A stretch of DNA of 64,000 nucleotides from Candidatus Saccharimonadota bacterium (GTDB lineage: Bacteria; Patescibacteriota; Saccharimonadia; Saccharimonadales; Saccharimonadaceae): contig QJZZ01000001.1 of the NCBI GenBank assembly GCA_003246575.1, positions 281,978 to 345,977 on the forward strand, read 5' to 3'. The first letter of the stretch is position 1, and each line of letters begins with the position of its first letter. Shown here in pieces: positions 1 through 40,976 of the stretch. The notes beneath the pieces are model-generated. The model saw nothing but the letters and a program-made list of their open reading frames with translations, did no database searches and was not told the DNA's origin. A program made the position numbers and the translations under genes.

Positions 1-1012
1 GGTTTAGGCTCGAGAGAATACTGAACAGGCTTGTTGACTTACCTGATCCAGTCGGGCCAGTGACGAGAATCATGCCGTTTGGTTCGGTCATCGCTTCGCT
101 GATAATCTTGAGGGAGTGTCCCCAGTAGCCAAGTTGTTGCAGCGTCACCGTCTTGTTCGACTCATCAAGAATACGCATAACGACTTTTTCGCCTTCTGTG
201 ATTGGCAGTGTACTGACACGGAGCGCGTATTGTCGGCCGGCGACCTTAATCTTGAAGCGGCCATCCTGTGGCACGCGACGCTCGTCAATCTTAAGGTTCG
301 AAAGGATTTTGATACGACTAATCAGCGGCGAGAGTACGCTGCGAGGCAATTGGTTTACTTCCTTGAGGACGCCGTCGATGCGGTAGCGCACCTGGACATA
401 GTCCTCGCGCGGCTCGATGTGGACGTCGCTGGCTTGTGAGCGAATTGCATATTCGAGCAGCAGGTTAACAGTTTGAGCAACAGGTGAGTCTTCGGCGACA
501 TCTGCTTCGCTGACTTCCGGACTTGCCTCTGTCTCCACGCGCTGAACATCGATAACCTGGTCGAGTTTCTTGTCGACATCACCTTTGTAGAGTTCGAGGC
601 AGCTGAGGATATTTGAGTGGGTAGCAATGTAGAGCTGGGCGTCAGTGCCGAGCTCCTTCTCGAGGAAGTTGATAGCCTGCACGTCGTCCGGGTCATCCAT
701 CGCGAAATGGATGGTCCCATCCTCATCGATCTTGAAAACGATCGCACTATACTGGCGCGCGATACGCTCCGGGAGGCGGTTCAGGGCGTCGATTGTGATA
801 TCTTCAGGGACGATTTCGACGTAGGTAAACCCGGCAAATTCTGCAAATGACTTGGTGAGTGCCTGTTCGTCGATAAGTTTTTCTTTGATGACATGCTGCT
901 GGAGGCTGATATTGGCACGTTTCGCCTCAACAGCAAGCTCCTCGAGTTGCTCGCGAGTTGCAATCTTGTTCCGTTCCAGGAGTGCAATGAGGGTGTCGTT
1001 AGAAATGCGCAT
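1..1012 (-). CDS. pilB: PilB/GspE-type assembly ATPase, N-terminal part (cut by window edge)
   Basis: Cytoplasmic hexameric ATPase that powers type IV pilus extension (GspE/PilB family). The frame is open on the minus strand from ATG at 1012 to the window edge, giving 337 residues. It shows an N-terminal MshEN/T2SSE_N-like domain (start MRISNDTLIALL), then the ATPase core with SDVHIEPRED and DGRFKIKVAGRQYALRVS, and ends just after the Walker A motif GPTGSGKS. Walker B and the zinc-binding region lie outside the window. A TACAAT box (minus strand, 1027-1032) sits 14 nt before the ATG. It is divergent from tsaE across a perfect inverted repeat. The window carries several prepilin genes that such a motor would serve. 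PilB against GspE or a competence ATPase cannot be settled from this fragment. Confidence 0.88.
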   Translation of the reverse strand, partial: MRISNDTLIALLERNKIATREQLEELAVEAKRANISLQQHVIKEKLIDEQALTKSFAEFAGFTYVEIVPEDITIDALNRLPERIARQYSAIVFKIDEDGTIHFAMDDPDDVQAINFLEKELGTDAQLYIATHSNILSCLELYKGDVDKKLDQVIDVQRVETEASPEVSEADVAEDSPVAQTVNLLLEYAIRSQASDVHIEPREDYVQVRYRIDGVLKEVNQLPRSVLSPLISRIKILSNLKIDERRVPQDGRFKIKVAGRQYALRVSTLPITEGEKVVMRILDESNKTVTLQQLGYWGHSLKIISEAMTEPNGMILVTGPTGSGKSTSLFSILSSLN

Positions 1013-13899: not shown

Positions 13900-14478
13900 C
13901 TATAGGTGATATTCGAAACAGATTCCGTCTTGAAGTAGGAGCGAATCACGCTGATACACACTACCCGAGGGGTCTATTCCGCATTCCGTGAGTTCTTCGT
14001 TGAAGTGTTCCGTGGTTGACGCAGAGGGTGATTCAACAGAATAGAATACCATGCCATGATCATTCGACGGCAGTTGATAGGCTGCAATGCTCACGAGTCC
14101 ATCTGAGGCAGATTGAGCAATATTTGGCGGAAGATCTTGGGTAAAACCTGCCGGCAGGTACCCACTTGCAACGAGTGTATCCTCCACGGTGCAGGTATAC
14201 ATGCTCGTTCCAAACCATCCGTTCACACCATCGGGACACTCAGTTGCAGATCCAATTGCAACAGTTGAACCCCAGCCGCCTGCGGGAAAGTGTCCTTTGT
14301 TCACGATAAACAGCTGAATCGCGTCTGCAATTTTGGTGGCGCCATCTTGAACCTTGAGGTTTCGCGCTCGCATTTGTCCACCATTGTAAGCGACTGCAAT
14401 AATAGAAGCCAAGATCCCGATAACGATAGTAACGATAATAAGTTCGACGAGAGTGAAGCCGGGGGCGTTCTTTTTCAT
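13900..14478 (-). CDS. Type IV pilin-like protein
   Basis: 192 aa. MKKNAPG/FTLVELIIVTIVIG is a standard prepilin peptidase site with Glu5, followed by the hydrophobic N-terminal helix and a globular domain with cysteine pairs (ATECPDG, MYTCTVE, TECGID, DGICFEYHL). I use ATG 14478 directly before this motif; the much longer open frame upstream runs through a tRNA-Pro gene and is not real. It could be a major or a minor pilin. Confidence 0.9.
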   Translation of the reverse strand: MKKNAPGFTLVELIIVTIVIGILASIIAVAYNGGQMRARNLKVQDGATKIADAIQLFIVNKGHFPAGGWGSTVAIGSATECPDGVNGWFGTSMYTCTVEDTLVASGYLPAGFTQDLPPNIAQSASDGLVSIAAYQLPSNDHGMVFYSVESPSASTTEHFNEELTECGIDPSGSVYQRDSLLLQDGICFEYHL

Positions 14479-14585
14479 GTAGTTACTATGACAAAGCTGG
14501 CAGGTAGGGTCAATAGCATAAGTGGAATGGTTGACCGCCTCATAATAGAAAATATCCGTAGCCAAAAGGGTACGGATATTTTCTG

Positions 14586-14661
14586 TGGTCGGGGTGAAAG
14601 GGCTCAAACCTTCGACCTCTCGGTCCCAAACCGAGCGCGCTATCAACTGCGCCACACCCCG
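14586..14661 (-). tRNA. tRNA-Pro (TGG)
   Basis: Cloverleaf with acceptor CGGGGTG/CACCCCG, discriminator A, encoded CCA, anticodon stem CTCGG/CCGAG and loop TTTGGGA (anticodon TGG). The D-loop is AGTTGATA and the T-loop TTTGAGC: position 19 is A and position 56 is T, a matched replacement of the nearly universal G19-C56 tertiary pair. Confidence 0.95.
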
Positions 14662-14711
14662 ATATGTTGTGTATCGGATGATATTGTAGCAAATATTTTT
14701 CAATAATGCTA

Positions 14712-14788
14712 TGGTCGGGGTGACTGGAATTGAACCAGCGACCTCGCCGTCCCGAACGGCGCGCGCTACCAGGCTGCGCCACACCCCG
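14712..14788 (-). tRNA. tRNA-Pro (CGG)
   Basis: Acceptor CGGGGTG/CACCCCG, encoded CCA, anticodon stem CGCCG/CGGCG and loop TTCGGGA (anticodon CGG). The D-loop AGCCTGGTA and T-loop TTCAATT are normal. It sits 50 bp upstream of tRNA-Pro(TGG) on the same strand and is probably co-transcribed with it. Confidence 0.95.
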
Positions 14789-14872
14789 ACATCTGATAAC
14801 AGTATAGCGCGTGAAACCACCGCCGCATAGAGGCGATTGCGCAGTATATCGGTGGCGCGGTACAATACGATC

Positions 14873-16417
14873 ATGAAACGAATCAAATCTTTGCCTTCAC
14901 AATTACTCCGACGTCCGAAACTCATACTTGCGTTTATTCTCGTCGCATTCTCTACAGTAGTACTCGGCAATATTACACGTTGGTCAATATGGTTCGATGA
15001 AGGCTTCAGCCTTTATATGACACGCTTTAGTTTCATGGACATTGTTCACCTGACGGCTGCTGACGTGCATCCGCCGCTTTTTTACTGGGCGCTAAAGCTG
15101 TGGATGATGCTGTTTGGGACATCTGATCTTGCGGCCCGTTCGATGAGTTTATTCTTCGCACTTATCGGCTTGGTTGGCCTGTATTATGTCATCAAAAAAC
15201 TCTTCTCGAATGAACGCTGGGCGCTCCTGGGCGTAGCGGCGGTAGTACTTTCGCCGATGCTCGTCCGCTTCAGCGATGAGGCGCGTATGTACACAATGGT
15301 TTTTGCTATTGTGATGTGGGCTACCTACGTTTTACTCAGGGCGCTCGAGTCGAGCGGACGTAAGTGGTGGATTGTGTACGGGGTGCTGATCGCGCTCGGC
15401 ATGTACACACATTATTTTGTTGCGCTCGCATGGTTGGCTCACTGGGCGTGGCGCTGGTGGGAAGTTCGGGCTGGACGTCAAAAAAAGCTCTTCACGAAGC
15501 AATGGGTGTGGGCGCACGTACTCGCTGTTGGGCTGTTTGCCGCTTGGGTTCCGGTCGTCATCTATCAGTTTGCGGTTGTGCAGGCAGGATTTTGGATTCC
15601 ACCGCTCTCGGCGTATACACCGATTGACTATGTGTCTAATGCCTTACTGTATCGTCAGTACGGCGAGGTAACTGGGTGGTGGGCGTTATTATTCTATGCG
15701 AGTGCCGCGGCACTCGTGTATCTTATATGGTACGCTTGGCGCAACGTACCAAAAAAGCATGCACGTTCATTGAGGCTGCTATTCTCTATCGCATTCGTTC
15801 CTCCTGTGCTATTAGCTGTCGCATCAATCCCTCCGCTTAGCTCGTCCTTTATCGACCGATACATTATGTATGCACAGTTATCGATGATGGTGCTTGCTGC
15901 GATTGGATTTGCTCTTCTGTATGCGCAACGCAAGCGACTTGCCATCTGGCTCGGGATTGTATTCATCGCTACAGCGGGTCTGGGGTCGTACAACGTGTAT
16001 TATTACGGTAACTACAACAAGAATTCATCGACGTCGATTCGAGTTAAAGAAGTAATCAGTCAAATCGATCAAGCTGGAACGTTTGGTGAGCCAATCATTG
16101 CCGCATCGCCGTGGGTATACTATGAGGCGAGTGCATATGACAGTGCTGAGCATAGAGTGTACTTTGTCGATGCCAACACAAGCTACGAATATGGTTCACT
16201 TGAAATGCTTCGCACGAGTGATATAGGAAAGATTAAAGACCTTGCCGCATTCACATCGTTGCACCGATATGTCTGGGTGGTTGATAACCATCCTGATGGT
16301 GACGTAGTGCCACTCGAATCGTCATGGGTTCGCGTGAAGACAATCGATGCATTTGACTCGATCGATGGTAACGTGAAATATCGCGCATCGCTCTTTGATA
16401 CGCAAGCGGAGCAGTAA
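14873..16417 (+). CDS. GT39/ArnT-like membrane glycosyltransferase
   Basis: 514 aa with about ten hydrophobic segments and the catalytic signature of dolichyl/polyprenyl-phosphate glycosyltransferases: WSIWFDEGFSLYMTRFS (acidic residues in the first outer loop), then VHPPLFYWALKLWMMLFG and RSMSLFFALIG. Such enzymes move a sugar from a polyprenyl phosphate to proteins or lipids on the outer membrane face; pilins and surface proteins are possible acceptors here (inference). The start is ATG 14873, 6 nt after TACAAT (14861-14866). Confidence 0.88.
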   Translation: MKRIKSLPSQLLRRPKLILAFILVAFSTVVLGNITRWSIWFDEGFSLYMTRFSFMDIVHLTAADVHPPLFYWALKLWMMLFGTSDLAARSMSLFFALIGLVGLYYVIKKLFSNERWALLGVAAVVLSPMLVRFSDEARMYTMVFAIVMWATYVLLRALESSGRKWWIVYGVLIALGMYTHYFVALAWLAHWAWRWWEVRAGRQKKLFTKQWVWAHVLAVGLFAAWVPVVIYQFAVVQAGFWIPPLSAYTPIDYVSNALLYRQYGEVTGWWALLFYASAAALVYLIWYAWRNVPKKHARSLRLLFSIAFVPPVLLAVASIPPLSSSFIDRYIMYAQLSMMVLAAIGFALLYAQRKRLAIWLGIVFIATAGLGSYNVYYYGNYNKNSSTSIRVKEVISQIDQAGTFGEPIIAASPWVYYEASAYDSAEHRVYFVDANTSYEYGSLEMLRTSDIGKIKDLAAFTSLHRYVWVVDNHPDGDVVPLESSWVRVKTIDAFDSIDGNVKYRASLFDTQAEQ

Positions 16418-31412: not shown

Positions 31413-32945
31413 CTAGATGCTGTCGACGACCTCAATGTGGCCGCCAATGCTGTTGATACGGTTTGCGAAGTCTTCGTAGCCACGGTTGATGCTATAGATA
31501 TCACGGAGCACAGAGATGCCAGGCGCGGCAAGCATCGCAAGAAGGATGACGACAGATGGGCGAAGTGCTGGTGGGGCGATAACTTCGCCAGCTTTCCATT
31601 TGGTTGGTCCTGTGATGTAGACACGGTGAAGGTCGGCAAGCTCAACCTGGCCGCCTAGCTTGGTGAGCTCGGTGAAGTAAATGGCGCGGTTTTCATAACT
31701 CCAGTCATGCACGAGCGTGCGTCCTTCTGCCATGGTGGCGATAAGGCCAAGGAAGGGGAGATTATCCATGTTTACGCCAGGGAAGGGCAGACTGTGGAGC
31801 TTGTCTTTCGGCGCAGTCAGCATTGATTCGTGAAGCGTGATGTCAACGAGGCGAGTGCGACCATTGTCGGCGAAGTATTCGTCGGTGAGCGTGTACTGGA
31901 GGCCCATTTGACCAAGAATTGCCAGTTCAAGCTCGGTGAATTCGATTGGCACGCGACGAACCGTGATCGAAGACTTAGTGACGACACCTGCAGCGATCAA
32001 GCTCATGGCTTCGATTGGGTCCTCGCTCGGAGAGTATTCAACATTTTTGTTGATTGACGAAACGCCACGAATCTTGAGGACGGTCGTACCGATACCCTCA
32101 ATCTTGACGCCGAGCTTTTCGAGATAAAAGCAGAGGTCTTGTACCATGTAGTTCGGGCTGGCATTGCGGATAGTCGTCTCACCATCGAAGCCTGCAGCAG
32201 CCATGATGACATTTTCGGTCACAGTGTCGCCGCGCTCCGTGAGGACGATGGCGCCCGACGGGCCTTGAGGACGTGAAACGGCGTGATAATAATCGGTTCC
32301 GGCTGCGGCTTCAACATCGAGGCCGAAGGCGCTGAGTCCGACCATGTGCGGCTCAACGGTGCGTGTACCAAGGTTACAGCCACCGGCGAACGGCAATTTG
32401 AAATCATCGTATGAGTGGAGGAGTGGGCCAAGGAACATGATGATAGTTCGAGTACGCTTGGCGGCTTCGACGTCGATATCCTCGAGGCGAAGACGGGCTG
32501 GTGGGGTGATTTCAAGGTCGTTATTTGGCAGCCAGCGACATTTGACGCCAATGCTTTCAAGCACTTCAATGATACGATTGATTTCTTCGATGCGAGCGAC
32601 ACGGCGCAGTGTCGTCTTGCCTTTGTTCATAAGACTCGCGCAGAGGAGTGCGACAGAAGCATTCTTGCTTGTCTTGACATCGATGCTGCCGCTGAGCTTG
32701 GTGCCGCCATGGATGACGAAGTTTGTCTTGCCAGAGTGATTGATATTGATGACAGATGTCTCGAGCACTTCCGAGATGCGCGCCACCATGTCGATGCTGA
32801 GGTTTTGCTTACCACTTTCGATACGGTTGATAGCCGACTGACTCGTGCCGATGGCGCTCGCCAGTTCTGCTTGGGTCATTTTGCGTTTGATGCGATTTTT
32901 TTGAATAAGCGAACCAATATCTTGGAGGTAATTGAGTGAATCCAT
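31413..32945 (-). CDS. murA: UDP-GlcNAc enolpyruvyl transferase fused to an N-terminal XRE-type HTH
   Basis: 510 aa against about 420 for standard MurA. Residues about 10-66 are a Cro/C1-type helix-turn-helix (IQKNRIKRKMTQAELASAIG, SQSAINRIESGKQNLS). From about residue 70 a full MurA follows: KTSKNASVALL (substrate Lys-Asn), PFAGGCNLGTR with the catalytic Cys that fosfomycin alkylates, ISPNYMV-like ASPNYMVQD and LPFPGVNMDNLPF. The start is supported by TATAAT (32952-32957, minus strand) 6 nt before the ATG, which places the HTH inside the protein. It could bind DNA, possibly its own promoter, or RNA; that is inference. Confidence 0.93.
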   Translation of the reverse strand: MDSLNYLQDIGSLIQKNRIKRKMTQAELASAIGTSQSAINRIESGKQNLSIDMVARISEVLETSVININHSGKTNFVIHGGTKLSGSIDVKTSKNASVALLCASLMNKGKTTLRRVARIEEINRIIEVLESIGVKCRWLPNNDLEITPPARLRLEDIDVEAAKRTRTIIMFLGPLLHSYDDFKLPFAGGCNLGTRTVEPHMVGLSAFGLDVEAAAGTDYYHAVSRPQGPSGAIVLTERGDTVTENVIMAAAGFDGETTIRNASPNYMVQDLCFYLEKLGVKIEGIGTTVLKIRGVSSINKNVEYSPSEDPIEAMSLIAAGVVTKSSITVRRVPIEFTELELAILGQMGLQYTLTDEYFADNGRTRLVDITLHESMLTAPKDKLHSLPFPGVNMDNLPFLGLIATMAEGRTLVHDWSYENRAIYFTELTKLGGQVELADLHRVYITGPTKWKAGEVIAPPALRPSVVILLAMLAAPGISVLRDIYSINRGYEDFANRINSIGGHIEVVDSI

Positions 32946-33065: not shown

Positions 33066-34343
33066 ATGATTGATGTTACGGTAGCAAATCTTATTGCCGA
33101 AGAGGCACAACGACAGACGGAAGGGCTTGAACTGATACCGAGCGAGAACTATGTTTCTGCGGATGTACTCGAGGCGCTCGGTAGTATTTTTACAAACAAA
33201 TACTCCGAAGGATATCCGGGTAAGCGCTACTATGGCGGCCAGGAAAACACCGACGTGCTTGAGCAGCTCGCTATCGACCGAGCCAAGGAGTTGTTTGGTG
33301 CGGATCATGCGAATGTACAGCCGCACTCTGGTGCACCAGCGAATGAAGCCGTGTACTATGCCTGGCTCGAACCAGGTGATACGGTACTAGCCATGGATCT
33401 CGGCCACGGCGGTCACTTGACGCATGGCAACCCAATGACTCGCTCCGCGCATCTTTACAACTTCATTCCATACAAGGTAAAGAATGTTGACACAGGCGAG
33501 ATTGACTATGATGAATTGATTCGTCTCGCACGAGAGCACAGGCCGAAGCTGCTACTTGCGGGCTTTAGCGCCTATCCGCGTGAGCTCGATTATGCCAAGT
33601 TTGCCGAGGCGGCCAAAGCTGCCGGTCCGCAGTGCCTTCTGATGGCCGACATGGCACATATCGCCGGGCTGATTGTTGGCGGCGTCGCTAAGAATCCGTT
33701 TGACTACGGGTTTCACGTCATTACGACGACAACACACAAGACGCTGCGTGGTCCACGCGGTGGGCTGATTCTCTCGAAAGGCGTTGTCTCAACGCCACTC
33801 CGAGCGCCCGAGAAGACAGTCGAGAATATTCCAACCCTGATCGACCGCGCTATCTTTCCGGGAACACAAGGGGGGCCGCACATGCATACGATCGCTGCGA
33901 AGGCTGTGGCATTTGGCGAGGCGCTCAAGCCTGAATTTAAAGCCTATGCTCAGCAGGTCGTCAAAAATGCGAGTACATTGGCTGACGCTATGATCGAAGA
34001 GGGGTTCGTGCTCGTTGGTGGCGGTACGAGCAATCACCTCATTCTTGCCGACGTTGAACGAAGTTTTGGTGTGAATGGCAAACTTGCCGAGGAAGCGCTC
34101 GACAAGATTGGTTTAACGCTCAATAAAAACTCCGTTCCTGATGACCCGAACCCACCGTTCCGTCCGAGCGGTATCCGTCTCGGAACACCGGCGCTGACAA
34201 CTCGCGGGATAACCGAAGAGTCAATGCCGCTGATTGCGCGCTGGATGCGCCAAGCGATTGATGTTCGAGATGATGAGGCTCATCTTGCTGAGTTGCGGGA
34301 CGAAGTGAAGGCATTTTTGGCTGATTACCCAGTGCCAGCCTGA
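33066..34343 (+). CDS. glyA: Serine hydroxymethyltransferase
   Basis: PLP enzyme interconverting serine and glycine with one-carbon transfer to tetrahydrofolate. 425 aa, full length: LIPSENYVSADVLEALGS, YPGKRYYGGQENTD, the PLP lysine in HVITTTTHKTLRGPRGG and C-terminal PFRPSGIRLGTPALTTRG. AGGGAGA precedes the ATG. With folD at 45067 it makes up a minimal folate one-carbon route. A strong terminator follows. Confidence 0.98.
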   Translation: MIDVTVANLIAEEAQRQTEGLELIPSENYVSADVLEALGSIFTNKYSEGYPGKRYYGGQENTDVLEQLAIDRAKELFGADHANVQPHSGAPANEAVYYAWLEPGDTVLAMDLGHGGHLTHGNPMTRSAHLYNFIPYKVKNVDTGEIDYDELIRLAREHRPKLLLAGFSAYPRELDYAKFAEAAKAAGPQCLLMADMAHIAGLIVGGVAKNPFDYGFHVITTTTHKTLRGPRGGLILSKGVVSTPLRAPEKTVENIPTLIDRAIFPGTQGGPHMHTIAAKAVAFGEALKPEFKAYAQQVVKNASTLADAMIEEGFVLVGGGTSNHLILADVERSFGVNGKLAEEALDKIGLTLNKNSVPDDPNPPFRPSGIRLGTPALTTRGITEESMPLIARWMRQAIDVRDDEAHLAELRDEVKAFLADYPVPA

Positions 34344-34411: not shown

Positions 34412-34864
34412 CTATGCGCCGTAATGCACAGATGCTTCAGCTGGAGTGCTGAGCGAGTAGTCCCAGTAGTAGACGTTACCACCAGTGGCGGTTCCGTTAA
34501 TACGGACGGTTGAGCCGCTAAGTGCAGTACCGCTAGTGAGGGCGGTTGTGCTCATGATGGTGTCTGTTGTGTCGGTGACGATTGGTGTCGTAGATGCAAC
34601 GCCGACTGCAGTAAGGTTGTCAATCTTTGACTCTGCGGTAGCCTGTATTTGGGTTTTTGTTGTTGGGTAACTGCCGTTTACGGCGTTGTATGCCTCAAGT
34701 TTTTTGACCATCTGGCTTGCAAGCTCTTTGCCAACTGTTGCTTTTGCACGGTTCTGTACACCGTTGTACGCAACGACTGAGATAGCCGCAAGAATAGCGA
34801 TAACAACGATAACGATCAACAGCTCAACGAGCGTGAAACCGCGTGAATTACGTTTGTTTGTCAT
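34412..34864 (-). CDS. Type IV major-pilin-like protein A
   Basis: 150 aa. NSRG/FTLVELLIVIVVIAILA is a textbook prepilin leader with Glu5. A helical stem is followed by a small, Thr/Ser-rich head ending VYYWDYSLSTPAEASVHYGA; there are no cysteines. GGGGGC lies upstream of the ATG. The first 40 residues and the leader are identical at DNA level to the pilin at 34997, while the heads differ, so these are paralogues in tandem. Confidence 0.93.
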   Translation of the reverse strand: MTNKRNSRGFTLVELLIVIVVIAILAAISVVAYNGVQNRAKATVGKELASQMVKKLEAYNAVNGSYPTTKTQIQATAESKIDNLTAVGVASTTPIVTDTTDTIMSTTALTSGTALSGSTVRINGTATGGNVYYWDYSLSTPAEASVHYGA

Positions 34865-34996: not shown

Positions 34997-35470
34997 TTAG
35001 CTTGCGCAGCCTGCTCCAGCTTTTATCTGGGTGAGTTCACTGCCGCTTGCAGCAGTGTAGTCCCAGTACCAGATGTTTGCGCCACCGGCGCATGACCAGG
35101 CCGAGACGACCGTACCATTGGCTGCGGTTGATGCCGTCAGAGTCGATCCGTCATTGAATGCAGTTGCGGCAATCATTGCGCTAGCTTTATCGAGTACCGC
35201 TTCTGGCGCAGATGTGCCGGCTGTTGTGTTGAGGTTTGCGCCAGTTGTTGCCGCACCGCCTGTGCTCACGAGGTAACTACCCTTGATTGCATTGAGTGCT
35301 TCAAACTTTTTCTGGATAGTTGATGCAGTCTCCTGGCCGGCTGCTTTCTTTGCACGGTTCTGTACACCGTTGTACGCAACGACTGAGATAGCCGCAAGAA
35401 TAGCGATAACAACGATAACGATCAACAGCTCAACGAGCGTGAAACCGCGTGAATTACGTTTGTTTGTCAT
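34997..35470 (-). CDS. Type IV major-pilin-like protein B
   Basis: 157 aa with the same leader and stem as pilin A (NSRG/FTLVELLIVIVVIAILA) but a different head that contains a cysteine pair (AWSCAGG ... AGAGCAS) likely to form a C-terminal disulfide loop, and a shared IWYWDYTAASGS motif. It has its own GGGGGC ribosome site and terminator, so it can be expressed separately from pilin A. Confidence 0.93.
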   Translation of the reverse strand: MTNKRNSRGFTLVELLIVIVVIAILAAISVVAYNGVQNRAKKAAGQETASTIQKKFEALNAIKGSYLVSTGGAATTGANLNTTAGTSAPEAVLDKASAMIAATAFNDGSTLTASTAANGTVVSAWSCAGGANIWYWDYTAASGSELTQIKAGAGCAS

Positions 35471-35559: not shown

Positions 35560-37617
35560 CTATTGCTCTGCCATGAATGAGATGCTATCAAGCGCTGACC
35601 AGCCGCTGTTGGCGCCTTCGCGAATGAGAATATCTCCAGTTGATGTTACATCGAATCGACATGCGGCGTTTACGCAGCTGGCTAGCCCGAGGATAGTGCG
35701 TGCTGGTCGGTAGCCCGCAGGCAGGGTATAGATGACTGTGCCACTTGTCGTTGTGCCGTTACGGATGAGGCCTTTTAGTGTAACAACACCATCCGCAGCC
35801 TTGATGTAGGAAGGTGTGGCATACCCTGGGTATGCCACCCAGCCGTTCTGTAGTGTCCCCATAGCGTGCCAGCCTCCATAGGTGGTATCTGGTGTCGTCG
35901 AGTAGAACATCTCTTGCAGTGAAACATACGCGTTGAGCGCAACACCCTTTGCCTGTATTTCGTTAGCTGCTGCTGACGCACTAAGTGACGTAAATGAATC
36001 GTTTGCCGCTGAAGCGAGGTGGAGGTACTCCGCCGATGCGTATCCTGCGGCAGTACCGATGATGCGGGTATTATCCGTCGTGGTTCCGCTTTTGACGAGG
36101 CCTCGCGTAAAGACGCGGCCAGAGCTATCTTTCGTGTAGCCGGCTTGCACCCAGCTACCACCGTAGTTTGCCCAGCCATTCGCAAACGTCGGTGTTTGCC
36201 ATGTATATCCACCAGATGCAGCGAGGAATTTAACGCCATCAAGTGAGGTCCAGCTTGTTGACATATTCGCTGCGATAACGCGGCCATCCGGCCAAACTTC
36301 TACTCGGCTGGCGGATGTACCCGACTTCATTGTTGCGAACATGAGGCCGCCTTCGTTTGCAGGTCGAAAGTTTGGTGGAAGTGTAAAGATGGTTTCGCCG
36401 ACTGTGTATGCACCGCCGTTCTTCGTGAGCAACCCCTTCAGTATGACGAGACCAGTTGACGTTTTTGTGTAGCCCACAGATTGATAGCCGCCGTCGTAGT
36501 TCACCCAGCCGTTTTGGAGATCGGGCGTATTCCATAATGGTATAGATGTACAGGCGTACCCAAATGGTGATGTTCCCACCTCGTTGTTGGCGTAGACGGT
36601 TGCGCAAACCGACTGACCTCTCTCGGCCGCTCTGGAGAACGTTGTGCTTAAAGATTTGTTCGCCCCCATTTGGTATGCACCGCCATTGACGCTATAGGTT
36701 ACCGTATACATCTCGGCACCAAATACTTTTGGCCACGAGAATGTTGCCGTATCGCCCCCCTCTACGGTGGCAGTTACCATTGGTGTGTCGGGGATGGAAG
36801 TAGCTATGGGGAGATTATTAATGCGGGTTACCTGTGTGGAGGCGGTTTCTGTTATGGTATTCCCGGCCGCTCGGCCGGCTATGGTAATGCTGACACTGAT
36901 TTTTTCAGCTTGGCGTGGGTCACTCGTACTAGTGCCAGCGGGTGTGTAGTAATTTACTGCAAGATTTGTGACGCTCGTAAGTATCTTTTCGTCGTATGAC
37001 TGGCAGGGTGTGCCATTAAGAGTGCTGCCGACGGGACAGCTATCGCGTTGCCATGGGGCGGCGCACGTCGTGTTGGCATCAGGGCTACCGCTTTGGTTCC
37101 AGTCTCGCACTACTTGGCGCCGCCATAGCGTGCTTGTGCCATCGCCGTTGTCAGTTTGAAAGTAGATTACGCGTAGGAGTAGTGGACGATTCGCACCGAC
37201 ATCTGCGCTGCCACACGCGTTGGGCTGATTGGCGTAATACACAGATTGACGAGAAGTATCATATGGGCTTGCTGTCGTTGCTTGCTGGGTAAAAATTATG
37301 TCATCTGATGATGTATCGAATGACGAGGTGTTGCCATCTTTGCCTTGGGGTGCACTGACGTAGGAAAACGTTTGCATGAAGTTTGTACTGATTTTTGCAT
37401 CCTCTTCGATTCGATTGATGGCACTCTGTACACGATAAGTTGTTCCAGCGCGCGTATTCGAAAGAAGTGTATCACCCGTCAGGCTGACCATAGCAGCAAT
37501 CAGGCCACCAATGACTAGGATCGCGATAGGGGCGACAACAAGCATTTCGACTAGGGTAAAGCCATCTCTATTAGCCGACGGGGCGGATTGGAAGCGAACG
37601 CGCAAGTCCTTGATCAT
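35560..37617 (-). CDS. Giant prepilin-like protein with Fn3 and three tail-fibre-like modules
   Basis: 685 aa. A prepilin-type N-terminus (NRDG/FTLVEMLVVAPIAIL, Glu5 present) is followed by a pilin-like region to about 270, a fibronectin-III-like domain (about 278-360), and three related modules (about 365-467, 478-575, 588-685). Each module shows NGWvnYgG..., a strand like VILKGLL or VTLKGLIRNGT, a TLPaGYRPA motif and a closing WxSLDxxxF. This module is like C-terminal domains of phage tail-fibre and other adhesive proteins. I use ATG 37617, which overlaps the previous stop (ATGA), not the longer frame. A pilus-tip adhesin for a partner cell is the natural inference. Confidence 0.82.
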   Translation of the reverse strand: MIKDLRVRFQSAPSANRDGFTLVEMLVVAPIAILVIGGLIAAMVSLTGDTLLSNTRAGTTYRVQSAINRIEEDAKISTNFMQTFSYVSAPQGKDGNTSSFDTSSDDIIFTQQATTASPYDTSRQSVYYANQPNACGSADVGANRPLLLRVIYFQTDNGDGTSTLWRRQVVRDWNQSGSPDANTTCAAPWQRDSCPVGSTLNGTPCQSYDEKILTSVTNLAVNYYTPAGTSTSDPRQAEKISVSITIAGRAAGNTITETASTQVTRINNLPIATSIPDTPMVTATVEGGDTATFSWPKVFGAEMYTVTYSVNGGAYQMGANKSLSTTFSRAAERGQSVCATVYANNEVGTSPFGYACTSIPLWNTPDLQNGWVNYDGGYQSVGYTKTSTGLVILKGLLTKNGGAYTVGETIFTLPPNFRPANEGGLMFATMKSGTSASRVEVWPDGRVIAANMSTSWTSLDGVKFLAASGGYTWQTPTFANGWANYGGSWVQAGYTKDSSGRVFTRGLVKSGTTTDNTRIIGTAAGYASAEYLHLASAANDSFTSLSASAAANEIQAKGVALNAYVSLQEMFYSTTPDTTYGGWHAMGTLQNGWVAYPGYATPSYIKAADGVVTLKGLIRNGTTTSGTVIYTLPAGYRPARTILGLASCVNAACRFDVTSTGDILIREGANSGWSALDSISFMAEQ

Positions 37618-39251
37618 ACGGTACCCACCCATGCGATTCCATCAAGAGACACCCATGGGCCAGTTCCAGCGATGAAAAGCACGTTGCACCCGCCGGATGG
37701 GGTGCCCGCCTCGATGTCTATGCGTGCGTATGCGTCACTAGCAATGGCTGCGTATATTTGACGGGAACTTGGACAGAGGCCAAGATTACCAGGGATGGTG
37801 CCGATGACTCCAAGGTTTCCCGGACGTGCAAGCCCGGTTAGCATGACAATACCGTCACTCGCCTTGTTGCTGTAGCGGGGCGAAGGAAAGCGCGACTCGG
37901 GGATTTCATAAGAAGTCCAGCCGTTTGAGAGAGAGAGGAGGTTCCATCCGCTATAGGTGTATGGATAGGTGAAGATATTGATGCTTTTTCCTAGGCTGGT
38001 ACAGCTGTCACCCTTTGCGAGGACGCTATAATTAACGTCATCAAATCCGTGGTATAACATCGTAGTGGTGCAGGCATTTTGCGCAGGCCAATGTTGGTAT
38101 TTATACGGCTTCATGGCTGGATCAACAGTCAGTTCAACGGTTCCATTCGCAGTTGTGCCGTTGTAGATCATGCCCTGGATACGCGTGCGTCCAACTGAGT
38201 CAACCATGTAAGCCGGTGATGCCCAGCGTGCATCGGCGTTTTTGAAGCTAAGCCATCCGTTGTAGGTTCTTGTCTGCGTGAAATCCGACAACTGATCACC
38301 GGTCTGGAAGTTGATTCCGTCAAGCGATACCCAGGATCCCGCCCCGTAGAGGCGGACATCTCCGTTGTCGTGAATATCAAGTCGTATCTTTGTGCTGTCG
38401 CTGCTCGTTGGAAGCGAGAACCATTGATTTGTTGCTGGTCGATATCCTTCGGGGAGCGTGCACACCGTGACATCTGCAGCGGTGCTTCCTGATTTGATAA
38501 GACCAGACAGGACGACGACGCCCGCTGAAGTTTTAGTGAAGGTGGCTGGTCCATACGGATTTCCATAGGGAACCCATCCGTTCTTGAGAGTGCAGGCGAC
38601 GGTAGATGGTATTGTGACGTTGACAGTTGTTACCGGTGAACCACCAGTATGATTTGTGGCGGATACATGAAAACTCACCGAATCATTTCGACTCGTGTTG
38701 ACTTTGTAGCTCGTCGCATTAATGTCTCCAACAGTTGTCAACGAGCCGTTCTTGGTATATGAGACCGTGTATGATTCGGCTCCTGCTACCGGACTCCAAT
38801 TAAAGGTCACAGATTGCGTCGCGTCTACCGAATAGGTTGTCGATGGTCCGTTGCCGATCGTAGAATTGGCAGGATTATTGCGATAGGTAATTGACCGAGT
38901 CACCTGTTGTGGCCCGGATTCATCATATCCTACGGTGACTGATACCATGCTGATCGCAGACGAAGTCCCGTAAGGACAGGTAATGGACAGATTCGCTGTT
39001 GCGCTCGGTAGTGTCGAATAGGATGGCAGCGAAAGTGATGAGGTTAGGGTGCTACAGGGCGATGTGGTGCTTGCCTCGCTTTCACGCATAAGGCTATAGG
39101 CGATGCCGCTTGCCTCGGAGCGGCGCTGTGCGCCTGATGAATCCCTGAGGACGACCGTGTAAAGCTGATAGCCCGATCCAAGAAGAGCGGCGGCAATAAT
39201 TAATGCCACGAGGAGCTCTACGGTACTAAAGGCTTGCTGGAACCGACTCAT
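37614..39251 (-). CDS. Giant prepilin-like protein with Fn3 and three tail-fibre-like modules
   Basis: 545 aa. The leader QQA/FSTVELLVALIIAAALLG has Ala instead of Gly before the cleavage site but keeps Glu5. It has an Fn3-like domain (about 140-214) and modules at about 221-316 (LKNGWVPYG, LSGLIKSGS, TLPEGYRPA, WVSLDGINF), 329-440 and 442-545 (SNGWTSYE, MLTGLARPG, WVSLDGIAW). It is the middle gene of an operon with ATGA overlaps on both sides. It is a paralogue of the downstream 685-aa protein but clearly diverged. Probable minor pilin/adhesin. Confidence 0.82.
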   Translation of the reverse strand: MSRFQQAFSTVELLVALIIAAALLGSGYQLYTVVLRDSSGAQRRSEASGIAYSLMRESEASTTSPCSTLTSSLSLPSYSTLPSATANLSITCPYGTSSAISMVSVTVGYDESGPQQVTRSITYRNNPANSTIGNGPSTTYSVDATQSVTFNWSPVAGAESYTVSYTKNGSLTTVGDINATSYKVNTSRNDSVSFHVSATNHTGGSPVTTVNVTIPSTVACTLKNGWVPYGNPYGPATFTKTSAGVVVLSGLIKSGSTAADVTVCTLPEGYRPATNQWFSLPTSSDSTKIRLDIHDNGDVRLYGAGSWVSLDGINFQTGDQLSDFTQTRTYNGWLSFKNADARWASPAYMVDSVGRTRIQGMIYNGTTANGTVELTVDPAMKPYKYQHWPAQNACTTTMLYHGFDDVNYSVLAKGDSCTSLGKSINIFTYPYTYSGWNLLSLSNGWTSYEIPESRFPSPRYSNKASDGIVMLTGLARPGNLGVIGTIPGNLGLCPSSRQIYAAIASDAYARIDIEAGTPSGGCNVLFIAGTGPWVSLDGIAWVGTV

Positions 39252-39841
39252 TGATGCTCGCTCACGATCGTGTGCAGGGCGCCGCCGTCTGCTTCACCGC
39301 GCCAATATAAGTTGTAGCGGACGCACCCACCATTCATACAGACTTGATTGCTCGTATCTACCGGTTCGTACACGTAGGTGTTAACTGTCGTGAGGGCTTC
39401 GATCGTTGTTGTATTTCCGGCTGCTCCGCAGCTTGATGAACAGACAGGGATAAGGTCGATGCTATTTCGGCCTGGCGCGGAGAATGTCTTATCGGTAGTG
39501 CCAGTGAACTCACGCTCGAGATATCCGTCGGTGACCTGCACTGGTGAAAATCCACTCACCGACTGTCCGCTTGCGTGAAGCAGTTCATTGACTCCCGGAT
39601 ATGTACCCGGGCCGAGTGACCAGCCAGCAGATGCGAGGGGATTGCCGTTACGGTAGCGGGCTTCAAGGCCTCGCGCTATAGATGTGGTGTCGGCATTCCG
39701 TTCGTCATCACGTGAGTGTGCCTGGGAGCTGCCGATGTTGATAGTCGCAAGCGTCAAGAGGATTGCCATGATGACCATGACAGAGATAAGCTCGATGATT
39801 GTGAACCCTGCTCTAGCTGATTCTCCACGTCGTACACGCAT
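39248..39841 (-). CDS. Minor-pilin-like protein, first gene of the adhesin operon
   Basis: 197 aa. ARAG/FTIIELISVMVIMAILL is a clear prepilin leader with Glu5; the globular region has cysteines in PVCSSSCGAAG and NQVCMNGGCVRYNLYW. Its stop overlaps the ATG of the next gene. By position it may prime or cap a pilus that carries the two large modular pilins. A TATGCT/TATATA-like box lies a few bases before the ATG. Confidence 0.87.
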   Translation of the reverse strand: MRVRRGESARAGFTIIELISVMVIMAILLTLATINIGSSQAHSRDDERNADTTSIARGLEARYRNGNPLASAGWSLGPGTYPGVNELLHASGQSVSGFSPVQVTDGYLEREFTGTTDKTFSAPGRNSIDLIPVCSSSCGAAGNTTTIEALTTVNTYVYEPVDTSNQVCMNGGCVRYNLYWRGEADGGALHTIVSEHQ

Positions 39842-39889: not shown

Positions 39890-40909
39890 CTATATCTCGA
39901 GAGGCTCTTGTTCGATTTGAATGCGAAACTTTGTTTGCACGCCAGCCGCGATTTCGGCGCGCGCAGCAGCTAGGTCGCTGTAGCCAGTCGCCGATTCATT
40001 GATGAGCACGAGCGCGTTCTTGTCATGTACGCGCATCCCATGGAGGAGTTGACCCTTGAATCCAGCCTGTTCGATCAGCCATCCGGTTGGAATCTTGTGG
40101 CGACCGTCTGGCATGTCGAAGTTTGGCATTGTCGGATACGACGCGATCAGTTCTTCAAATAGCCAGTTGTCTACGATGGCGTTTTTGAAAAATGAGCCTG
40201 CATTCGGGTGAAGGGCAGGGTCTGGCAGCTTGGCAAAACGAATTGCAAGTACACCATCTCGCACGGTTTGTGGTGTGAAAAATGTGATGGCATTTGTGTC
40301 AAAGTAGTCTTGGAGTGCTTTGTAGAACGGTGGCTGCGGGGCCGTCTTGCTGAGCTGTATGGTGACCGTAGTGATAATATAGCGCTGGTAGTCATCGCCA
40401 CGAAAGATACTGTGGCGATACGAGAAACTGCACTCTGCAGCAGGGAGTGTAACCATGCCGAGGGATTTCGTGTCGTAGGCATCAACGCTCACGGTAACAT
40501 CGCCGACTTCTTGGCCATACGCGCCAATATTTTGAACCGGTGCCGCTCCGACAGTACCTGGAACTCCAGACAGCGCTTCAATACCCGAAAGATTACGCTC
40601 GACGGTTTTTTTGACGATGTCGTCCCAGTTTTCGCCGGCTCCGATACGGATTGTTGTACTGCTCTGCGTATCCTCAATAATTTCAAACCCTTGGATCCGA
40701 TTATGGATGACGATGCCATCAAAGCGTTCGTCGTTAGCGATCGTATTGCTTCCTCCGCCAAGTATGTAGGTTGGAACGTTTTGTGCCTTGGCCTGCTTGA
40801 CGATAGTATCGATATCCTCGATAGAATGAACGTCGGCAAAGAAGCGGGCATTACCGCCAAGTCGCATTGTCGTGTAGTGGTCGAGGGGGACATTGGTACG
40901 TACTTGCAT
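39890..40909 (-). CDS. murB: UDP-N-acetylenolpyruvoylglucosamine reductase
   Basis: FAD- and NADPH-dependent second step of UDP-MurNAc synthesis. 339 aa from ATG 40909: VPLDHYTTMRLGGNARFF, FAD-binding ILGGGSNTIANDERFDG, SGVPGTVGAAPVQNIGAYGQE, CSFSYRHSIFRG and the catalytic Ser in NAGSFFKNAIV. Length and the YRxSIF loop fit type I (E. coli-like) MurB. The start is fixed by TATACT (minus strand, 40917-40922) 7 nt upstream, with GGAGG in between; the longer frame would read through the promoter. Confidence 0.95.
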   Translation of the reverse strand: MQVRTNVPLDHYTTMRLGGNARFFADVHSIEDIDTIVKQAKAQNVPTYILGGGSNTIANDERFDGIVIHNRIQGFEIIEDTQSSTTIRIGAGENWDDIVKKTVERNLSGIEALSGVPGTVGAAPVQNIGAYGQEVGDVTVSVDAYDTKSLGMVTLPAAECSFSYRHSIFRGDDYQRYIITTVTIQLSKTAPQPPFYKALQDYFDTNAITFFTPQTVRDGVLAIRFAKLPDPALHPNAGSFFKNAIVDNWLFEELIASYPTMPNFDMPDGRHKIPTGWLIEQAGFKGQLLHGMRVHDKNALVLINESATGYSDLAAARAEIAAGVQTKFRIQIEQEPLEI

Positions 40910-40947
40910 GACCTCCAGTATACCACCCCACAGAGGTACGCAATATG

Positions 40948-40976
40948 TTGACATACACACAATGGGGAGTTATAAT
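40948..40976 (+). promoter_or_regulatory. Consensus sigma-70 promoter of the structured-RNA locus
   Basis: TTGACA (40948-40953), a 17-bp spacer, TATAAT (40971-40976): a perfect match to the bacterial consensus and the strongest promoter in the window. Transcription should start near 40983, just before the closing stem of the RNA at 40984. Confidence 0.85.

Follow-up and report, generated by a model that had tools for sequence, protein, structure and literature searches.

Saccharibacterial minor pilins with phage-type receptor-binding modules: a probable host-gripping device

Background

Modular pilins, in which an unrelated module is grafted onto a pilin stem behind a prepilin leader, are already known from PilB and PilC of Streptococcus sanguinis (Raynaud et al. 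2021, PMC8179133), and in TM7x a propeller borne on a pilin has already been implicated in host binding (Grossman et al. 2025, PMC12206443). Here we analyse an operon of three minor prepilin genes in a 64,000-nucleotide stretch of DNA, hereafter the window, from a Candidatus Saccharimonadota bacterium (assembly GCA_003246575.1, contig QJZZ01000001.1, positions 281,978 to 345,977; all positions without a contig or locus name are those of the window). Two of the three proteins end in a triplet of modules with the fold of phage receptor-binding protein (RBP) heads, and we think it probable that these modular minor pilins present the heads so as to grip a host cell, which may be an actinobacterium.

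In S. sanguinis, the grafted module of PilB acts as a pilus adhesin and binds ligands; modular pilins are widespread and architecturally diverse, and exposure at the filament tip is proposed (PMC8179133). The modules named in the passages of that work considered here include vWA, lectin and carbohydrate-binding domains, and a phage RBP head is not among them. TM7x has two type IV pilus (T4P) machineries, the first locus encoding T4P-1, which serves motility, and the second, beside recA-recX and without pilT, encoding T4P-2, the thin pilus of clade G1 Saccharibacteria that serves host binding; a third, separate locus encodes five pilins, including PilX2 with an RCC1 propeller (PMC12206443). Host binding is reduced when pilX2, the gene of a minor pilin whose C-terminal domain is a beta-propeller, is deleted, and T4P-2 mutants lose it (PMC12206443). 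Cultivated Saccharibacteria grow on Actinobacteria (PMC11665869), and their host recognition has been described as largely unknown (PMC12206443).

On the phage side, the closest described proteins are gp15 of Listeria phage PSA, ORF49 of Lactococcus phage TP901-1 and the RBP of phage p2, whose fold and distal C-terminal position resemble those of the modules described here and whose role in the phage is receptor recognition. The phage RBP head is trimeric. Unlike the heads of siphophage RBPs, which are mounted on a tail, the heads considered here stand three in one chain on a pilin, and the three could form a pseudo-trimer. Our literature search, outside which most subscription journals and preprints lay, found no work joining Saccharibacteria or pilins with phage receptor-binding heads.

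Results

The three genes lie on the minus strand and overlap by ATGA stop/start motifs at 39248-39251 and 37614-37617, so that the initial annotation of one small and two large overlapping prepilin genes is borne out. Slot 1 (39248..39841) encodes a 197-amino-acid (aa) minor prepilin without an extra domain, which scores 22.9 bits against the Pfam N_methyl model (cut-off 21.2 bits) and has a counterpart at this position in almost every relative. Slot 2 (37614..39251) encodes a 545-aa modular minor prepilin with a short pilin stem, a fibronectin type III (Fn3) domain and modules A, B and C, and slot 3 (35560..37617) a 685-aa protein of the same plan with a stem of about 270 aa; if it started instead from the in-frame ATG at 37632, the latter would be 690 aa long. 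The slot-3 leader is canonical (RDG/FTLVEMLVV), with G, F, T and E invariant across 21 sequences. The leader is conserved among homologues: in each of the 20 other genomes, examined with their flanks, the module protein begins with one. The model of the 685-aa protein (mean pLDDT 84) consists of a 55-residue helix (22-76), a pilin beta domain, Fn3 and three modules; when this full-length model was searched with Foldseek the matches were mostly to Fn3 domains, and the search was uninformative for the stem. The genome (0.93 Mb, 98.6% complete) holds 22 N_methyl-bearing places and one A24 prepilin peptidase (PF06750 and PF01478). Its small size and gene content, together with T4P gene sets closely like those known from Nanosynbacter lyticus TM7x, suggest that it is saccharibacterial.

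The initial annotation had likened the modules to phage tail fibres and adhesins and proposed that single modules be compared with phage RBPs by profile and by structure. In these comparisons the modules proved to be of phage tail and receptor-binding type, and the fold is that of a phage RBP head rather than an unrelated one. Module C of slot 3 (35569..35862, minus strand), modelled alone with AF2, reached pLDDT 96.4 and pTM 0.86, and every one of ranks 1-29 among its Foldseek matches in the PDB is a phage protein: 28 are RBPs or RBP-bearing baseplates and the remaining one is a Pseudomonas phage tail needle. The best match is PSA gp15 (6r5w, 7.5e-5), to which the sequence-profile match of the module is only 0.017; the heads of TP901-1 ORF49 and the p2 RBP gave TM-scores by query of 0.5-0.7. 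Most of the named matches in a viral structure library are tail proteins from phages of Streptomyces, Microbacterium, Arthrobacter and others, and TM-scores reach 0.91 for minor tail proteins of the three named groups. PHROG tail and virion families match the modules with a best E of 8e-30; no Pfam or NCBIfam model matched them.

The modules are about 100 aa each and stand in tandem, a triplet being about 330 aa. An hmmsearch found six in the whole genome, all in slots 2 and 3 (E 1e-26 to 1e-40, with a profile built from those same modules); since the independent PHROG matches reach 8e-30, the resemblance is not due to chance. In slot 3, modules A and B occupy 36220..36534 (from the profile search) and 35899..36201; in slot 2, modules A, B and C occupy 38304..38597 (hmmsearch 132 bits), 37974..38282 and 37626..37946, and each scores best with the profile of its own class (A 93.7 against 79.9 and 60.0; B 56.8 against 20.3 and 14.4; C 55.6 against 42.1 and 22.9); all five lie on the minus strand. 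Invariant module positions include NGW and several glycines. The initial annotation had described three related modules with shared motifs in each large pilin, and the number stands; the motifs are not in all of them and the classes differ. The B modules are without TLPxGYRPA and the WxSLDGIxF ending and TLPxGYRPA is degenerate in module C of the 545-aa protein, so the modules form a triplet of distinct classes, not of equal repeats. Modules at matching positions in the two slots are 28-37% identical, which rules out a recent duplication of the triplet. A kinship of the 545-aa protein with Kelch or designed SAKe proteins (phmmer, best E 2.7e-5) was likewise ruled out, being a summation over repeats without a significant single stretch. 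Mean entropy in module C is 1.46 in surface loops against 1.87 in strands; the loops are no more variable than the strands and a hypervariable-loop signal is thus absent from this module.

The Fn3-like domain also held up, the fold of the slot-3 domain (36544..36774, minus strand) matching integrin beta4 FnIII (Foldseek 4wtw_B; TM-score by target 0.80, 1.9 A). Its slot-2 counterpart, placed approximately at 38607..38876 (minus strand) from sequence alone, is 33% identical to it. Pfam detects no Fn3 in these pilins.

Relatives of the modules and of the whole triplet were sought in 50,697 phage records. Module C was found in 78 records and the triplet query matched 97, the best single-module tblastn match being 4e-13. 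Single modules end tail proteins of phages of Streptococcus, Streptomyces, Bacillus, Staphylococcus and Paenibacillus and of a few Gram-negative phages; of ten phage loci inspected, nine have the module, or the final one of a triplet, at the end of a tail or presumed tail protein, and several of these genes are closely followed by genes for a holin, an endolysin or a baseplate protein. In 33 records a single place spans at least 80% of the slot-3 triplet; of these, 28 are Microbacterium phages matching as one co-linear piece, the other five being Streptomyces phages in which one short module is matched three times. When the slot-2 triplet was used independently for the search, 22 records exceeded 80%, every one of them a Microbacterium phage, and co-linear one-piece matches over at least 90% of the triplet were found in Microbacterium phages only with both queries (2e-21 and 4e-20). 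Phages Pumpernickel (gp98), A3Wally (gp101) and Truong (gp37, two genes before the endolysin gene) carry the same A-B-C triplet in the same order and C-terminal place, at 25-31% identity; at the N-terminus, by contrast, they have a tail protein instead of a pilin, and their receptor function is putative. Class-specific profiles applied to three Microbacterium phages assign the middle module to B and the last to C in all three and the first to A in two, and over the phage, slot-2, L078, L027 and L031 triplets (the last three from relatives) the positional class agrees for 19 of 21 modules. Because the classes keep their positions, the A-B-C triplet is one unit common to Microbacterium phages and these pilins.

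Uncultured viral contigs also carry the triplet, one (L152) with four module-like stretches in a single frame. A search for related loci with a single protein returned one cyanobacterial locus and five viral contigs, and a plasmid search gave two weak single-module places only. In Phormidesmis priestleyi (L092, 5392-6522) a single module stands near the end of a fibre-like protein whose neighbours, judged by eye, resemble phage-tail or contractile-injection-system genes. Few deep branches of the module tree are supported, so it is breadth of distribution that would argue for a transfer from phage to bacterium.

Of the 295 genomes in the family sample 50 carry modules, representing 13 of its 61 genera, and 42 of the 50 hold exactly three; beyond the family, samples of the order (393 genomes) and the phylum (380 genomes) yielded none. 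The locus order murB, slots 1 to 3, major pilin(s), glyA is kept with rare rearrangements, and 19 other genomes have the same architecture and operon in open frames, with the slot-2 variant of L078 in addition. Of 151 family genomes 85 have the slot-3 stem, and many of them encode it as a cargo-free protein of 255-300 aa at the same locus. The stem thus occurs alone in relatives and here carries, C-terminally, modules that are not T4P-specific, as modular pilins do.

What the stems carry varies. The cargo of slot 3 may be absent, Fn3 only (L137), CBM_4_9 (L131), a phage tail region (L130) or the triplet; slot 2 may be bare (about 130 aa) or carry LamG (L063, L080 and L130 by Pfam, L074 and L077 by likeness), Ig with the triplet and LamG (L078, where slot 3 is bare), or Fn3 with the triplet, as in the window. 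The triplet is therefore found on three stems, namely slot 3 in most genomes, slot 2 in the window and L078, and a major-pilin-like stem in L027. L027 (G167 C21) and L031 (G208 C37) belong to the same genus and have an Fn3-triplet protein, L031 matching L027 with its N-terminus cut off, and each genome holds a second triplet protein. In the slot-3 pilin of L130 (5844-7955, G139) the region replacing the triplet matches phrog_5939 (2e-16) and, to judge by this match, represents phage-type cargo of a second, independent kind. Mapped on the stem tree, presence and absence of the triplet require nine changes (8-10 in bootstraps), at least five of them on well-supported branches.

Exchange of heads is well resolved in one case. 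Genomes G009 and G090 are 98% identical in the stem at the aa level (dN 0.01) and 97% in murB and glyA, and their modules are only 60-75% identical (dN 0.19-0.30) with synonymous sites saturated, so that diversifying selection as the sole driver of the divergence is unsupported. This saturation in a close pair points to replacement by recombination, which is shown for module C of G009: it is 84% identical in nucleotides to that of G126 (dS 0.63), whereas the stems are only 74% identical (dS 1.85), and since stem and distal modules differ in history the heads have been exchanged. Two other close pairs (stem and modules 89 and 87%, 79 and 80%) are without excess divergence of the modules.

The genome encodes two pilM/pilB/pilC assembly sets and four T2SSE ATPases. 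The set on C3 (pilM, pilB, a shorter, pilT-like T2SSE ATPase, pilC and the prepilin peptidase) matches TM7x locus one, and the set at C1:275-283 kb (pilB, pilC, pilM and pilN adjoining recA-recX, with no pilT), about 36 kb from the operon, matches TM7x locus two; its PilB-type ATPase gene lies at 1..1012 (minus strand) and extends past the left edge of the window. The operon itself, like TM7x locus three, consists of minor pilins and a major pilin without machinery, and in one relative (L142) an RCC1 gene lies inside it. On the strength of these two likenesses T4P-2 is the likelier home of the operon. Where PilX2 bears an RCC1 propeller, however, the large domains here are Fn3 and phage RBP triplets, and RCC1 pilins are encoded elsewhere in the genome. 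Three further large frames (C1:247105, C4:31216 and C4:34845) have a prepilin leader and RCC1 repeats and are PilX2-like, a row of prepilins of about 370 aa, one with a Fib_succ_major domain, lies at C1:248-261 kb, and on contig C2 (3475-13047) an open frame of 6,781 codons, which holds some 30 RCC1 repeats, is likely a giant surface adhesin.

Downstream of slot 3 on the minus strand are two major-pilin-like genes, the first (34997..35470, 157 aa, N_methyl 38.7 bits) a conserved neighbour and the second (34412..34864, 150 aa) with an identical N-terminus and followed 3' by a terminator-like hairpin and T-run. From the ribosome-binding region through the leader to the N-terminal helix the two have the same nucleotide sequence, and beyond that they differ strongly, a pattern such as duplication would leave if combined with gene conversion or with an exchange of the exposed domain as a cassette. 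The flanks conserved in synteny are murB upstream (39890..40960, minus strand; MurB_C and FAD_binding_4) and glyA downstream (serine hydroxymethyltransferase; 33066..34343, plus strand; SHMT 512 bits). Beyond glyA, a 510-aa gene (31413-32945) that also stands beside the locus in relatives encodes, by Pfam, an N-terminal Cro/C1-type helix-turn-helix and a murA-type EPSP-synthase domain, and its identification as lysS was ruled out. Elsewhere in the window, the listed frame 13900-14970 has a prepilin motif at residues 167-191, which probably places the real start of this pilin gene far downstream of the listed one.

Discussion

The pilus-borne receptor-binding device suggested in the initial annotation is supported by the domains, leaders, machinery, operon, triplet homology and cargo turnover; display on pili and binding to a host are inferred from these. 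The source organism is probably an epibiont, to judge by its kin. We propose that the operon would form the minor-pilin set of a T4P in which the pilin stem anchors the large pilins in the filament, Fn3 acts as a spacer and the covalent A-B-C head triplet is displayed outward; being bulky, the large pilins are most likely at or near the filament tip. The triplet would bind a structure on the host surface, probably a wall glycopolymer of an actinobacterial host, and the pilus would tether the epibiont before close adhesion follows. Host choice could then be retuned in the manner of phages, with heads exchanged, gained and lost on constant pilin stems. Triplet homologues in phages of an actinobacterium fit, but do not prove, a receptor type shared with the epibiont. 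Compared with PilB and PilC (PMC8179133), the cargo here is a phage RBP head triplet without a Pfam family, two such pilins stand in one operon, and exchange of cargo between stems and between genomes is seen.

Several observations weigh against this reading. The two large prepilins score only 12.5 and 12.1 bits for N_methyl, below the cut-off, and the slot-2 leader (QQA/FSTVELL) is the weakest of the three, with Ala at -1 where homologues have Gly. The homologous proteins of Microbacterium phages carry the annotation 'minor tail protein' and are only putative receptor binders. The triplet is patchy, most relatives being without it, and it cannot, therefore, be the sole device of host recognition; the same genome also encodes three RCC1-bearing pilins. 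Assignment of the operon to T4P-2, finally, is by gene content, not orthology.

The same pilins might be adhesins for targets other than a host, such as biofilm matrix, kin cells, or mucosal or mineral surfaces, given that in free-living bacteria adhesins carried on T4P recognise eukaryotic or matrix ligands (PMC8179133) and that the LamG and CBM domains which replace the triplet in relatives are general glycan binders. We regard this as unlikely, since in phages the module fold is dedicated to recognising receptors on bacterial surfaces, whole-triplet matches are confined to Microbacterium phages, which infect actinobacteria, and it is host binding that is lost in the TM7x T4P-2 mutants (PMC12206443). 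It is very improbable that the large pilins form the tip of a pseudopilus or of a DNA-uptake pilus with the modules as receptorless scaffold: the slot-1 and slot-3 leaders do match GspH/GspG-type pseudopilin profiles weakly, and Saccharibacteria of the same group are naturally competent (PMC11665869), but the modules turn over, diverging in the close pair about ten times faster than the stem at the protein level, and most relatives keep the operon without them.

Homology of the triplet to Microbacterium phage tail proteins would also suit heads that compete for phage receptors and shield the host from actinophages, with attachment as a by-product, and TM7x is reported to alter the phage susceptibility of its host (cited in PMC12206443 and PMC11665869). 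We give this even less credence, as minor pilins in low copy number would probably not saturate the receptors of a host and the reported effect is ascribed to repressed receptor expression (PMC11665869). Although the modules are of phage type, a prophage remnant, a chimeric assembly or a chance resemblance is scarcely credible: the conserved locus, with one open-frame architecture recurring across genomes and a constant number of three modules in most module-positive members of the family, refutes it. The reading we prefer thus stays that of phage-type heads presented on minor pilins for gripping a host. A bolder version of it, in which a three-headed actinophage-type tail end was captured onto pili, host range evolves as in phages, and epibiont and phage compete for the same receptors, is tentative and in our judgement somewhat more likely to be wrong than right.

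Conclusions

The locus joins two fields, in that a phage receptor-binding cassette appears to have been reused on a bacterial pilus. Because the heads are gained, lost and swapped between relatives, they are good candidates for the host-recognising part of the pilus. The triplets are expressible fragments of known fold, and they come with natural recombining alleles, natural losses and phage homologues whose hosts are known; what decides the host of an epibiont thereby becomes directly testable. Any new C-terminal domain found on the pilin stems listed here would likewise be a candidate host-binding domain.

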